Assembly: GCA_900109895.1 (NCBI GenBank)
Contig: FOBR01000022.1
Location: forward strand, 1-64,000
Direction of reading: 5' to 3'
From: a bacterium A37T11
GTDB lineage: Bacteria > Bacteroidota > Bacteroidia > Sphingobacteriales > Sphingobacteriaceae
DNA: 64,000 nt
The notes under the pieces were generated by a model. The model saw nothing but the letters and a program-made list of their open reading frames with translations, was not told the origin of the DNA and searched no databases. Every line of letters begins with the position of its first letter. Position 1 is the stretch's first letter. Shown here piece by piece: positions 19,213 through 58,600 of this stretch. Position numbers and translations under genes: made by a program.

Positions 19213-20187
19213 TTATCTAAAAATCAAGCTGCGAATATTCTTTTCATCGATGGAAATCTGTGCTACCATGGCCTCAACTGAATCAAATTTCTGATCTGAC
19301 CGTACAAAATGAAGAAATTTTATGCGCATTCGCTTGCCGTAGAGGTCCTCGTCAAAATCAAACAGATGCGTTTCAATGCTAAAGTTTAGTCCATCAATCG
19401 TTGGACGGTTACCTATATAATTCATTCCGTACAGCGTTTTTAAAACTTCAGGAGGGGAAAATACATCATCCGAATGATTGGAGGGGGCTAATATGGCTGC
19501 CTCAACCGCATATATACCAAATCCAGGAATTAATTTATAAGGCTCATCTACCTGCATATTGGCGGTTGGAAAGCCAAGTCCTCTTCCCAATTGTTCACCA
19601 CGCACAATGGTGCCAGTAAGCTCAAATGGATACCCCAAATAGGTATTCGCAGTGGCAATATCGCCATTAACTAGCGCTTCCCTAATCTTACTGGATGACA
19701 CCGCAACATCATTGATATCTTGTTCAGGGATCTCTTGCACAGCGTAGCCGTAAATAGCTGAAAATTTTAGGAGGTCTCGCATAGACCCTTCCCTGTCTTT
19801 TCCGAATCGGTGGTCATAACCAATCACCATTTTTTTAGTACCAATCTTACCTACCAAAATATCCCGGATATAGGCCTCAGGCGTAAGATTGGAAAAATCG
19901 CGGGTAAAAGGTGTAATAATGAGATGGTCAATTCCTGAAGCTGCCAGCAATTCAATTTTTTCGCTCAAATCACTAATTAGCCTTAAACTGTCATCCTCAG
20001 GATGCAATATCATACGCGGGTGCGGAAAAAATGTCAGTAATACCGTCTCTCCTCCAAGTTCGTTTGCGCATTTCTTAAGCGTACTGATAATTTTTTGATG
20101 GCCAATATGCACGCCATCAAATGTGCCGATAGTAACCACCGCCGTATCCAATGGGATAAATTCTTGGAGATTTCTATATATTTTCAT
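19213..20187 (-). CDS. ribF: Bifunctional riboflavin kinase / FAD synthetase
   Basis: Converts riboflavin to FMN and then FAD. The N-terminal adenylyltransferase domain shows TIGTFDGVHIGHQKI and FFPHPRMIL, with the KKMVIGYDHRFGKDREG loop; the C-terminal kinase domain shows RGEQLGRGLGFPTAN and the FDFDEDLYGKRMRIKFL end. Length 324 is standard. The ATG at 20187 overlaps the truB stop by four bases, so the two are translationally coupled. Together with ribBA this window holds both ends of the flavin pathway. Confidence 0.97.
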   Translation of the reverse strand: MKIYRNLQEFIPLDTAVVTIGTFDGVHIGHQKIISTLKKCANELGGETVLLTFFPHPRMILHPEDDSLRLISDLSEKIELLAASGIDHLIITPFTRDFSNLTPEAYIRDILVGKIGTKKMVIGYDHRFGKDREGSMRDLLKFSAIYGYAVQEIPEQDINDVAVSSSKIREALVNGDIATANTYLGYPFELTGTIVRGEQLGRGLGFPTANMQVDEPYKLIPGFGIYAVEAAILAPSNHSDDVFSPPEVLKTLYGMNYIGNRPTIDGLNFSIETHLFDFDEDLYGKRMRIKFLHFVRSDQKFDSVEAMVAQISIDEKNIRSLIFR

Positions 20188-20894
20188 CTGTTAGCTACGT
20201 TTAAGCCTTCTGCTTTTAATCTAACTAATTCTTGTACCAGATCAGGTAGTTGCCACGCTTGGTCAACCTTAAATTGACCACTGCGGGTTCTCCTGAGATT
20301 GCTTAAATAGGCACCGCAACTAAGTTTTTGCCCCATATCATGGGCCAACGACCGGATATAGGTGCCTTTGCTGCATACCACCTTAAAGTCTACTTCAGGT
20401 AGTGCAATCCGGGTAATTTCAAACGTGCTTATGGTTACGGTACGGCTTTTGGTTAGTACTTGCTCGCCGCGACGGGCTTTTTCATATGACCGTTCCCCGT
20501 CAATTTTTACTGCAGAGTGTGCCGGAGGAAATTGCTGAATTTCACCTTCAAAGGATGCAGCTGCATTTACTATGCCCGCTTCCGTAAGGTGGCTAATATC
20601 TGTATACCCCACTATTTCTGTTTCCAAATCATAGGAGGGCGTGGTAGCTCCAAGCACAATTGTACCTGTATATTCCTTTTCCTGTGCTTGGAGTTCATCT
20701 ATTTTCTTGGTCAATTTGCCCGTACAAATCACCAAAAGACCGGTTGCCAGGGGATCAAGTGTGCCGGCATGGCCTACTTTGAGCTTTAAAGGCTTTAGGG
20801 CATATCTAATTTTACTGACCACGTCAAAACTTGTCCATTTGTGGGGTTTGTCCAGCAGCAACAGTTCACCCTCTGCAAAGTTAAATTTTAGCAT
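20184..20894 (-). CDS. truB: tRNA pseudouridine-55 synthase TruB
   Basis: Makes pseudouridine 55 in the T loop of tRNAs. The catalytic Asp is D47 in GHAGTLDPLATG; other motifs are LLLDKPHKWTSFDVV at the start and CSKGTYIRSLAHDMG. It has 236 residues, shorter than E. coli TruB (314) because the C-terminal PUA extension is missing, as is usual in Bacteroidota. It abuts uppP with no gap and overlaps ribF by four bases. Confidence 0.97.
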   Translation of the reverse strand: MLKFNFAEGELLLLDKPHKWTSFDVVSKIRYALKPLKLKVGHAGTLDPLATGLLVICTGKLTKKIDELQAQEKEYTGTIVLGATTPSYDLETEIVGYTDISHLTEAGIVNAAASFEGEIQQFPPAHSAVKIDGERSYEKARRGEQVLTKSRTVTISTFEITRIALPEVDFKVVCSKGTYIRSLAHDMGQKLSCGAYLSNLRRTRSGQFKVDQAWQLPDLVQELVRLKAEGLNVANR

Positions 20895-21689
20895 TTAAAT
20901 AACCTGTAAACTATGGCCGCTCAGTAACATGATTAGAATGACGCCACCAATAATGATGCGGTACCACCCAAATGCTTTGAAACCATATTTGGTCACGATG
21001 CCAATAAATGATTTGATGGCTATTATAGCCACAATAAAACCCACTAAATTTCCTATCGCCAACAGTTTGATTTCTTCACCGGTTATGGAATTTCCATCTT
21101 TAAAATAGTCCAGCAACTTTTTACCGGTTGCTGCTACCATGGTAGGTACTGCCAGAAAAAAAGAGAATTCTGCTGCGGCTTTGCGAGTCAGCTTTTGCTG
21201 CATGCCTCCAATAATAGTGGCTGCTGATCGGGATGTTCCTGGTATCATCGCCAAGCATTGAAAAAGGCCGATCTTAAAGGCAGTTAAGTAACTTATATCG
21301 TCAGAATCATTCAGCAAAGGTTTATTAAACCACCGGTCAACGTACAGAAGAATCACCCCGCCCATGACCAGGGAGACGGCTACCGTTGTGGGGCTTTCAA
21401 GCATATTGTCAATTAAATGGCTAAACAATAAGCCAAAAACAGCTGCTGGAATAAAAGCTACGACAAGTTTGAAGTAAAAATCGACAGAACGGAAAAAACG
21501 TTTAAAATAAAGTACCACTACTGAAAGAATGGTACCTAATTGGATGGCCACTGTAAAGAGCTTAACGAAAGGCGTTGGCTCCATTCCCATGAGCGCTGTG
21601 CCAATAATCATGTGGCCGGTAGAAGATACGGGAAGGAACTCAGTCAGGCCTTCAATAATGGCCAGAACCAGGGTTTCAAATAGATTCAT
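20895..21689 (-). CDS. uppP: Undecaprenyl-diphosphatase UppP
   Basis: Integral membrane phosphatase (BacA family) that recycles undecaprenyl pyrophosphate to the carrier lipid of peptidoglycan and O-antigen synthesis. The two active-site motifs are present: [15 protein letters not shown] (about residues 13-27) and [14 protein letters not shown] (about 150-163). It has 264 residues and about eight helices. Its start overlaps the DUF3098 stop by one base, and truB follows directly. Confidence 0.97.
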
Positions 21690-21934
21690 TAATTCTCAGG
21701 CTTTTTACGCTTAGTCAAAATGGCAACAATACCTAATATAAAGCCTCCCACTACGATGATTGGGGCAAGGGTAATTTTGGTGAAACTATATATATCCGTT
21801 GTGCCAGACATTAATATGAAACCTAATATGACCACGCCAATGCTGGCAAGGAACAGCTGATAGTTCATTTTGCCAAACACTAATTGCTCCTTTTTAGGTT
21901 CTTGAGTGTTTTTATATTTAAATTCTTGAGCCAT
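21689..21934 (-). CDS. DUF3098 small membrane protein
   Basis: An 81-residue protein with two hydrophobic helices ([18 protein letters not shown] and [15 protein letters not shown]) and a basic C-terminus (KRKKPEN). It matches the DUF3098 family, which sits between ftsX and uppP in many Bacteroidota and has no assigned function. The ATG at 21934 follows almost directly on a tandem repeat array; the ribosome binding region is therefore made of repeat sequence and degenerate repeat remnants, with no Shine-Dalgarno motif. Confidence 0.87.
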
Positions 21935-21938
21935 TTTA

Positions 21939-22019
21939 ATTTACTATTTACGATTTACGATTTACGATTTACGATTTACGATTTACGATTTACGATTTAC
22001 GATTTACGATTTACGATTT
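21939..22019. repeat. Tandem heptanucleotide array (ATTTACG)n
   Basis: Ten perfect head-to-tail copies of the 7-base unit ATTTACG span 21946-22015, with a partial copy after them (22016-22019) and one degenerate unit (ATTTACT) before them at 21939-21945. On the transcribed minus strand the unit is CGTAAAT. The array fills nearly the whole gap between the ftsX stop (22039) and the DUF3098 start (21934). Perfect short repeats of this kind can change copy number by slippage. Confidence 0.97.
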
Positions 22020-22038
22020 TATATTTTTAAGGGCTATA

Positions 22039-22917
22039 TTATCTATACAGGTCGTTTGAGCGTAACCTTAGGTATTTGCTTACCGCAAAAAAAGTACTGA
22101 AACCAGCGATGACAATGCCAAGGGCTATCACTCCTAAAAAGATGACCGCAAATTCAAAATAATTTCGGAGTATAACTAATTCAGGTATCTGTTGCTGCCC
22201 AAAATACAAAATTGCAAGCAACAACAAAATGGAAATAAGCGCGCCTAATAAGCCATGTAATAGGCCATAACCTAAAAAAGGGCGACGTATAAAACCTCTG
22301 GTGGCGCCCACCATCTGCATGCTTTTAATCAGGAATCGCTGTGAATAGATTGCTAGTCTGATCGTATTATTGATCAAGGCAATGGCTATAATTAAAAGTA
22401 TTGCTGCAAAACCAAGGATAATAATGCCGATAATCCGAATATTCTTATTGACCATATCAATCAGCGATGGCTGGTAAACCACTTCTTTTACCAGTTTGTT
22501 TTCACTCATTTGTTTGATAAAGGTATCAATGCTAGGATTATTGGCATATTCGGCTTTTAAATAAACATCTATGGATGATAGGAGCGGATTGTACCCAAGA
22601 AATTTCACAAAATCTTCACCCAAATCTTTCTGCAGGTTAATGGCGGCAAGTTCTTTACTAATATACTGCGTGCGTAGCACCTTTTCATTGGTGTCCAATT
22701 TCTTTTGTAACGCAAGCACATCACCCTCACTGGCCGACTCATTGACAATTATATTCAGGACAATGTTTTCTTTCACATAGTTTGAAAGATTTTTGGCGTG
22801 TACCAAAAGCAAGCCCAAAAGGCCCGTCATCATCAATACCAGTGCAATACTGATGACTGTGGAAATATAAATCGATTTTGTTTTACCCGCCGATGCACTT
22901 TCTTCAAACTCTTCCAT
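22039..22917 (-). CDS. ftsX: Cell division protein FtsX
   Basis: Permease-like partner of FtsE that transmits ATPase activity across the membrane to control division-site peptidoglycan hydrolases. The layout is a cytosolic N-terminus, TM1 (about residues 18-40), an extracytoplasmic domain (about 41-160), then three C-terminal helices (about 165-190, 222-243, 262-283). An ATG two codons upstream (22923) is also possible; I chose the second ATG because it gives the usual MEEFE start. ftsE is not adjacent. It heads the leftward operon of DUF3098, uppP, truB, ribF and DUF2157. Confidence 0.95.
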   Translation of the reverse strand: MEEFEESASAGKTKSIYISTVISIALVLMMTGLLGLLLVHAKNLSNYVKENIVLNIIVNESASEGDVLALQKKLDTNEKVLRTQYISKELAAINLQKDLGEDFVKFLGYNPLLSSIDVYLKAEYANNPSIDTFIKQMSENKLVKEVVYQPSLIDMVNKNIRIIGIIILGFAAILLIIAIALINNTIRLAIYSQRFLIKSMQMVGATRGFIRRPFLGYGLLHGLLGALISILLLLAILYFGQQQIPELVILRNYFEFAVIFLGVIALGIVIAGFSTFFAVSKYLRLRSNDLYR

Positions 22918-22992
22918 ATGCAATGGTTTTGACGGCGAAGTTAATAATTAGATGTGATACATAGGATACCAGGGCGTAGATTTTTTGAAGAC

Positions 22993-55627: not shown

Positions 55628-58600
55628 GTGAACACCTCCTTCAAAATACGGATATTACTGTTGCTGCTGACGCTCTGCTTTGCAGGAACAGCCGTTACCG
55701 TACGCCTTACCTTCCATAAAGAGGAGGTATTATTGCTGGACGCCCGCCACATTGAGCGTAACCTCCAGCAAAAAGAAGAAGTGGTCAAAAACTTGCTGGC
55801 AGACTCAGCCTGGTTTAATTCGCTTAGGCAAATCGATGAAAATAACGATCTGGCACAAGACATAATTAACAATCTTGGAGATAAACAATCCATATTTGTA
55901 TACGTCTATTCAAACAACGAGCTGGTTTTTTGGGGATCAGATCAAATTGTACCAAAGACTGACGCCGGGATGCCGGATGGCATCAGTATGATCCAGGCAG
56001 ACAATGGATGGTATACAGCTTTTAAAAAGGAAGGCGGGGGGCAATCTGTTGTTTGCCTAATTCCCGTTAGGACCAAATTCCCGCTACAGAATAACTATTT
56101 GCAAGACCATTTTTCGCCCGATATTTTAAAGTCACAAAATCTGGAGATTGCTGAAAATACGGACAGTACTGTTTATAACATACGTACCACAGATGGCCAG
56201 TACCTCTTTTCGGTTAAGTTAAGCCAGGAAACCACCAACACCTTTTATTCGGTTATTGAATTAATTATGTGGATGCTGGCAGTCATTACAGCGACCATTT
56301 TTGTAAATACCATCTGTGTGTGGATAGCCCAAAAAGGATATATATTGCTGTCCATCCAATTGTTTTTTTGCTATTTTTTAATCATAAGGTATATTGACCT
56401 AAGCAGTAATTGGCTGGCTGGTCACTTTTATGGCGGGTTATTTGACCCACGGAATTTTGCATCCAGTTTTTTCTTTCCCTCCATTGGAGCATTTCTCCTC
56501 AATGTCTTATCCTTTACCTGGTTCATGTGTTATGTTTTTGCCTATAGGTATGATCTGAAAATTTCGGATTCAAAACGGGGAAAGTGGTGGGGATGGGTTC
56601 TATTTGTGGTATTTGGATTTTTTATTTACGTCATTTGCCTACAGGTTACAAACATATTTAATGGCCTTATCGTCAATTCAAATATAAACTTTGACGTTAC
56701 CAATATCCTTAACCTCAACTTTTATAGCTGGCTGGGCATCCTTATCTTGTGCCTTACACTGCTTGATCTTTATTTCTTGATCGAAGTATTACTTATAGGA
56801 ATATGGCAATTCGGGTTTACAAAAGAAAAAGCGCTTTTTGCATTTGTTATTATGCTTTTGGTGCTTACTATTTTTAAAATAACCATCCATGATCTTTCCG
56901 TATCGTTTTTTCTTTTTTCAGCCATCGTTTTTTTAAGAGGATGGTTTAATTATCAAAATAGAGATTTCAATTTAGTCGTCTTTATTTCTATCTTGCTTTT
57001 ATTTGCCACCATTGCTTCCATTAAGCATGCCGCCTTTCAGGCCCAAAAGCACTTGCAGGCACAGGAAGTAACCTTGCAGCGACTAAGTACATCAGACGAC
57101 CCCAATGCCGTATTGCTTTTCTTTGATCTGGAGAAAGAAGTTTTAAAAGATCCATTGCTTATTGATTATTTCAGGTTTCCTAACTATGACAAGCTTCAGA
57201 TATTAAATGAACACTTTCGAAAAGTATATTTAACCGGTTACTTGTCGCGTTTTGAGTGCAATATGTCTGAATACAATGCCGAATTCAAATCAATCGGCTC
57301 AGGATCTGAAGCAAAATTGCAGCAATACCTGGAGAAAGTAGTGGATGGTTCTTTCAGACTTTCTAAAAAACTCGATTTTTATCGGATCACAAACAGCATC
57401 GCCAGCATTGAATATTTCGGCCTGCTGCCCATTGTTTATCATAATGAAACCATTGGCACGCTGCTTATCACTTTAAATAACCGATCTTTCGGTAGGCGTA
57501 CCGTGTCATTTCCGGACGTACTGGTGGACGGTAAGGTCGATAATTCAAATGAGCTGGAAAATTATGCTTACGCATTTTATCGGGATGGAAACTTAGTGAG
57601 CCAATTTGGCGATTATGTATACAGCCTTTCAGACAAATCCTATCCAAAAAGATTGGATAGTTTAACCCAATTTAATGAAAGAAACTATAGCCATTTGATC
57701 TATTGGCCAAATGCACATACATTGATCGTATTAAGCAAGCCCATCACAAGCACCTGGACGCAACTGGCTTCCTTATCTTTCCTGTTTCTTGTATTCCTGT
57801 TTTTTTCCATTATTGCCTATGGCTTAAAATGGATATTTAAAACCTTAAAAGATTATGACTTTAGCTTAAGGAACCTCAGGTGGTCTATCCTGATATCCCA
57901 GAGCAGGATTTTATATAGTACGCGTATACAAGCGTTCGTGGTACTGGCCGTAGTGCTTACTTTAATAATCGTGGGGATTATCACGTTTTTTAGCATCAGC
58001 CTGCAATATAAAAAACAACAAGAAGAAACAACAGTAAAAGATGTTACAGAAATTGCATATCGGTTAGAAAACAGGTTTTTCAACAATGATTTCTTAAAAA
58101 AACCCATTTATTCGACCAAAGAATTTAATATTGCCGCCGAAGCAAATGCCACTGATCTTAACCTCTACGACAAATCAGGAGAACTCATTTACTCTTCTCA
58201 ATTAAGAATTTATGATTTAGGGCTGATCTCCAGATTCATGAATCCAAATGCGCTATTAAATATGCAGCGATTGCAACGATCTGAGTACTTTCATCGCGAA
58301 CAAATCGGAAACCTGAATTATATTGTAGCATACGCACGTATTAAGAATGACCAAAACGAAACCATAGCTTTCTTAAGTCTTCCTAAATTTTCCAACCAAA
58401 AAGAAATTGATGAACGCATAGGTTTATTATTAAATACACTCATTAATATTTATGCACTGGTTATTGTAGCACTGGGTTTATTTGCTGTTTTTGTGGCTAA
58501 CCAAATCACCTCACCACTCACACTGGTGCAGCGGAGCCTTGCCCGCACCACCATTGGCAGGATGAATGAACCAATTTTTTGGAAACGCAATGATGAAATT

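Follow-up and report, generated by a model that had tools for sequence, protein, structure and literature searches.

An array of ten exact ATTTACG units between ftsX and the gene of a DUF3098 membrane protein in bacterium A37T11 is, judged by sequence comparison, a member of a class of heptamer repeats that is scattered through the Sphingobacteriaceae, changes fast in length and sequence and is often found before gene starts. The reading that we favour, and hold to be reasonably likely, is that of a heptanucleotide microsatellite born of slippage and tolerated or mildly favoured as an mRNA-sense leader free of Shine-Dalgarno (SD) sequence, which would loosen the coupling between ftsX and DUF3098.

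The array and its genomic surroundings

The window, i.e. the whole stretch of DNA analysed, comprised 64,000 nt. TRF detected a repeat of period 7 at positions 21939–22019 (11.6 copies, 98% matches), and direct inspection of the sequence resolved it into ten exact units (21946–22015, ATTTACG on the plus strand and CGTAAAT on the minus-strand mRNA), one degenerate end unit on the DUF3098 side (21939–21945, ATTTACT or AGTAAAT on the mRNA) and a partial unit on the ftsX side (22016–22019, ATTT or AAAT on the mRNA), in agreement with the ten units and degenerate edge copy of the initial annotation. The full spacer measures 104 nt (21935–22038). On the minus strand, ftsX stops at 22039 and DUF3098 opens with an ATG at 21934, which leaves 11 nt between the exact array and that ATG, and 4 nt between the degenerate unit and the ATG; the distance of 4–11 bases given earlier is confirmed by these ORF coordinates. 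The presumed order on the mRNA is repeated CGUAAAU followed by AGUAAAU, UAAA and AUG. Within the window the array had been described as the only one of its kind, which is also correct: the remaining three TRF rows were two-copy repeats with nothing comparable among them, and a search for two adjacent units (≤ 2 mismatches) returned 11 matches versus 0.68 expected from shuffled sequence, ten of them within the array and one stray match at 58208. Head-to-tail 7-nt units beyond chance expectation place the array with the heptanucleotide long simple sequence repeats (SSRs) and STRRs.

Pfam searches identified FtsX (22039–22917; PF18075, PF02687) in front of the array, the DUF3098 membrane protein (21689–21934; PF11297) directly behind it, UppP/BacA (20895–21689; PF02673) as the next gene of the cluster and TruB (20184–20894; PF01509) farther downstream, all on the minus strand. 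ORFs were called mechanically and gene starts were deduced from them; for ftsX an in-frame ATG is present at 22917, and the mechanical ORF opens at a TTG at 22923. A promoter within the ftsX–DUF3098 gap was considered and rejected, since the motif TAnnTTTG had no match in the 470 nt from 22400 to the DUF3098 start. The closest named relatives of FtsX belong to Olivibacter (81% identity), followed by Parapedobacter, Daejeonella, Pedobacter and Sphingobacterium, which suggests a genome within the Sphingobacteriaceae or very close to them; in the genome set compared, its genus is represented by this one genome.

The ftsX–DUF3098 gap in relatives

The gap could be read in 28 family relatives, taken from the 29 best among 58 that gave a match (one locus, L065, was left out). 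Its median length was 3.5 nt; in 26 relatives it ranged from −1 to 40 nt, with eight overlaps (−1 nt, TAATG), and the other two had gaps of 94 and 102 nt. A CGTAAAT array was found in none of these 28 gaps, nor in the 65 named loci read. The initial annotation had suggested looking for the same array at this place in sister genomes, and the outcome was negative in every relative read, which argues against a conserved control of DUF3098 and UppP. On the evidence of these loci the array at ftsX–DUF3098 is lineage-specific.

The 102-nt gap was identical in sequence to that of Olivibacter sitiensis and contained degenerate CAACTNN heptamers. In the named loci (65 of 80 read) the median gap was 9 nt and seven gaps reached at least 84 nt; some of these contained different repeats with units of 7 or 8 nt (Mucilaginibacter). 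Long gaps are undercounted here, since a number of the 15 unread loci visibly open with long repeat-like gaps. The repeats in the long gaps of relatives differ, which suggests that unlike short repeats entered the gap on separate occasions in separate lineages. Gaps of six Mucilaginibacter loci displayed octamer-like repeats, CACTAATT, TCATTGGG and similar.

Recurrence of the unit within the genome

Across the 5.09-Mb genome, seven sites carried at least three exact units (0 matches for the reversed control), and a two-unit search with ≤ 1 mismatch produced 99 matches versus 19 for the reversed pattern. At least two adjacent AWTTACG units were present at 36 sites, of which 28 were non-coding when only ATG-opened ORFs were considered and 26 under a wider ORF call; the two sites falling within ORFs under the wider call (L031 and L046) were retained among the 28. 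Such a multitude of mainly intergenic loci in one genome is a hallmark of long SSRs and STRRs. The idea of a unique, single-locus array was rejected, as the unit recurs genome-wide, and the array at ftsX–DUF3098 is one case of a genome-wide class before unrelated housekeeping genes. Genes behind the arrays, named from their sequences without a database, included ilvC, hisC, uxuA, rsmI, aroG-chorismate mutase (aroG-CM), cysD and an argE-like deacetylase, with no contingency-gene theme.

Ten of the 36 sites were located inside ORFs of approximately 390–442 aa (wider ORF call). One of these ORFs was scanned against Pfam and proved to be FecR, and the nine others resemble it around the repeat. In these ten FecR-type ORFs (L031 and L046 among them) the CGTAAAT repeats encode VNRKS and fall at one of two positions, either behind a hydrophobic (membrane-like) segment or in the loop that follows E(A/G)YFEV, with some units altered such that in-frame stops are avoided. 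Elsewhere, a pair of near-identical genes (L024 and L123) seems to stem from a duplication; their leader arrays, with 6 and 7 units, are near-identical as well.

Orientation and register to the start codon

At 14 of the 28 non-coding sites an mRNA-sense CGTAAWT array ended ≤ 20 nt before an ATG, while an antisense array within 20 nt of an ATG was seen at only one. Random placement of the arrays within their own gaps and in random orientation gave a mean of 4.99 such sites, and 14 was reached in none of 20,000 trials. The other half of the 28 sites was not placed before a start. A separate search restricted to the 20 nt before an ATG yielded 15 leaders (one FecR-internal match was left out), in which the last unit (≤ 1 mismatch) was separated from the ATG by 4 nt (nine leaders), 3 nt (three) or 6 nt (three); this closeness is partly by construction, owing to the restriction of the search, for which the random-placement test corrects at the 28 sites only.

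According to PMC6847099, Bacteroidetes largely lack SD sequences, and in F. johnsoniae SD-free initiation is favoured by A at positions −3, −6, −12 and −13. No G peak was present in the sampled ATG leaders of our genome. The array leaders had A at −6 in 12 of 15 cases (versus a fraction of 0.39 in 267 sampled ATG leaders), at −3 in nine and at −13 in nine; with A at −12 in just two of the 15, the fit to the F. johnsoniae preference is partial.

Single CGTAAWT heptamers before ATG were not enriched (188, with the reversed pattern at 182). On its own, therefore, the heptamer does not mark leaders in general, and a general leader motif of this kind was rejected. A three-frame stop insulator was likewise discarded: all three frames were stopped in 8 of 16 arrays in the sense and 9 of 16 in the antisense direction (background 0.21 and 0.22), which is not strand-specific.

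Arrays in related genomes

Among 300 genomes of the order, 22 contained the three-unit pattern (2 for the reversed control); across the phylum it was present in 13 of 395 genomes, eight of these outside the family (3 for the reversed control). A set of 29 arrays was compiled from 28 of 31 relative loci (a duplicate filter removed L091, L094 and L172, the former two being viewed separately). Twenty of these arrays had a same-orientation, ORF-opening ATG ≤ 38 nt downstream, although one of the twenty (L171) is doubtful, its flanking genes running the opposite way. Arrays recurred in the orthologous leaders of ychF, lptB, argH, aroG-CM, rsmI and the argE-like gene (named from sequence), the last three of which bear them here and in another genus. 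Copy numbers differed between species in the leaders of ychF (GGTGAAA; 6, 9 and at least 13 copies in a 140-nt view), aroG-CM (CGTAAAT; 3 versus 7) and lptB (3 versus 4), a variation between relatives that is typical of long SSRs and STRRs; the first 400 coding nt were 84–87% identical in the species with differing ychF and aroG-CM copy numbers. Other species had other heptamers, or none, at such genes.

Of 65 readable leaders of ychF (30 of 30), aroG-CM (11 of 30) and rsmI (24 of 30), the 30 loci in each case being the best of 61 genomes, seven reached the threshold. All seven did so at lag 7, whereas lags 5, 6, 8, 9 and 10 gave no such leader. Five of the seven were previously known array loci, and without these five the count was 2 of 60, approximately the 2.7% baseline (22 lag-7 arrays in 827 intergenic stretches). 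Hot-spot genes were rejected on this ground, and the return of arrays in a small number of orthologous leaders is no more than suggestive. Four exact ATTTACG units were also present in each of seven viral_contigs stretches (L417–L423); these may be host DNA. A viral carrier was set aside.

Origin and effect of the array

Differences in copy number between species suggest that slippage in 7-nt steps grew the array in the ftsX–DUF3098 spacer of this lineage. If the gap is transcribed, as we presume, the array would sit in the DUF3098 leader in CGUAAAU orientation. Such a leader is A-rich, G-poor and weakly structured, usually has A at −6, and may be permissive for initiation; the array would then persist because this orientation does no harm to starts without an SD sequence, or helps them mildly. 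The main likely effect would be on spacing. Relative to most relatives, in which the two genes are a few nucleotides apart or overlap in TAATG, the spacer is lengthened, which would weaken translational coupling, and translation of DUF3098 is probably separated from that of ftsX by the array.

The initial annotation had proposed a rheostat tuned by slippage, in which copy number sets the output of DUF3098 and UppP and is selected to vary. Much of its description stands: the array lies outside coding sequence, takes up most of the gap, adjoins the DUF3098 start and sits within the initiation region, and similar arrays elsewhere vary in copy number between species. There is also a precedent in the AGAT tract before uspA2 of Moraxella, cited in PMC4679880, where repeats between promoter and start alter expression. 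The tuning itself, however, does not sit well with a gap that lacks the array in every relative read, nor with sister arrays placed before ordinary metabolic and housekeeping genes rather than contingency genes. A version based on RNA structure was rejected, since the predicted mean unpaired probability at −20 to +20 is almost flat over 1–20 copies (0.61–0.67, and 0.60 with no copies). We consider a rheostat at this locus very improbable.

Another possibility is that the units are sites for an RNA- or DNA-binding protein which controls a regulon of CGUAAAU-array genes, as proposed for the TAACTGA repeats of Beggiatoaceae. One unit in many leaders of one genome, with fixed orientation and spacing, would agree with this, as would the array-bearing rsmI, aroG-CM and argE-like genes of a second genus. 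On the other hand, orthologous genes in other species carry different heptamers or none, many units are degenerate, starts are not preceded by an excess of the single motif, and orthologous leaders stay at about the baseline once known array loci are removed; such a regulon appears improbable to us. A purely neutral microsatellite, with position and orientation simply marking where expansions are tolerated, would account for the turnover and degeneracy of units and for their lineage-specific presence. Without some selection on leaders, it is difficult to account for 14 sense arrays versus one antisense array at ≤ 20 nt from an ATG, although selection against the antisense orientation alone would suffice for this bias. 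Strict neutrality is in our judgement unlikely, and the slippage-born, tolerated or mildly favoured leader remains the preferred reading.

Period seven and known heptamer repeats

In cyanobacterial STRR heptamers, period 7 dominates among the longer units, and Mrazek reportedly described in 2007 long SSRs with 7-nt units, with period 7 again dominant among longer units. Relative to long SSRs and STRRs, the new elements here are the Sphingobacteriaceae-type set and its register to the ATG. No description of ATTTACG arrays in Sphingobacteriaceae was found in the literature searched, which lacked most subscription papers.

In surveys of exact runs, four of the seven short-period arrays found in 464 kb of this genome had period 7, as did all five of those found in 400 kb from a relative (G315). 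A mismatch-tolerant survey of intergenic DNA from five genomes (samples of 464, 400, 400, 200 and 200 kb; lags 4–16) gave 22 arrays at lag 7, nine at its harmonic 14, seven at lag 11 and no more than three at every other lag; simulations at lag 7 produced ≤ 0.05 arrays per genome. The unit sequence varied from array to array across the five genomes. Period-7 arrays between co-directional genes had 8% G on the sense strand versus 17% in the background.

Among described systems, the closest are the TAACTGA repeats of Beggiatoaceae, Cyanobacteria and a few Bacteroidetes (MacGregor 2015, PMC4679880), which are likewise tandem intergenic heptamers, mostly in one orientation and a few nucleotides before starts, and for which sister strains are reported to differ by indels in steps of 7 nt. 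Our array does not share their unit: the unit here is ATTTACG/CGTAAAT, one unit takes the place of another from species to species, and nothing points to a regulator. The GGGNATC repeats of Xanthomonas and Nostoc (Rehm 2015, PMC4692102, which also mentions Calothrix heptamers) are similar as genome-wide heptamers that favour one strand close to starts and stops, yet they are G-rich and quadruplex-forming, whereas the ATTTACG unit, with one G (or one C) and no G run, is of a different kind.

A wider generalisation, which we regard as doubtful, would be that in Sphingobacteriaceae and their relatives a 7-nt expansion process writes ever-changing arrays into intergenic gaps, of which sense ones 3–6 nt before the AUG are kept as leaders for SD-free initiation, with selection acting on period and register, not sequence. 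Should the preferred reading hold, what looked like a rheostat at a single locus would be one instance of a mutational habit shared by the family. Orthologous genes whose heptamers before the AUG differ in number or sequence would then be natural experiments on SD-free translation starts, and the 7-nt preference, reported earlier without an established cause, would be testable in culturable Pedobacter and Olivibacter.

A global period-7 character of intergenic DNA was rejected: the lag spectrum of 47.5 kb of intergenic DNA had no global lag-7 periodicity, and the arrays are sporadic. Period-11 intergenic arrays were also observed, four in the G016 sample and three in the G051 sample, where simulation expects none.
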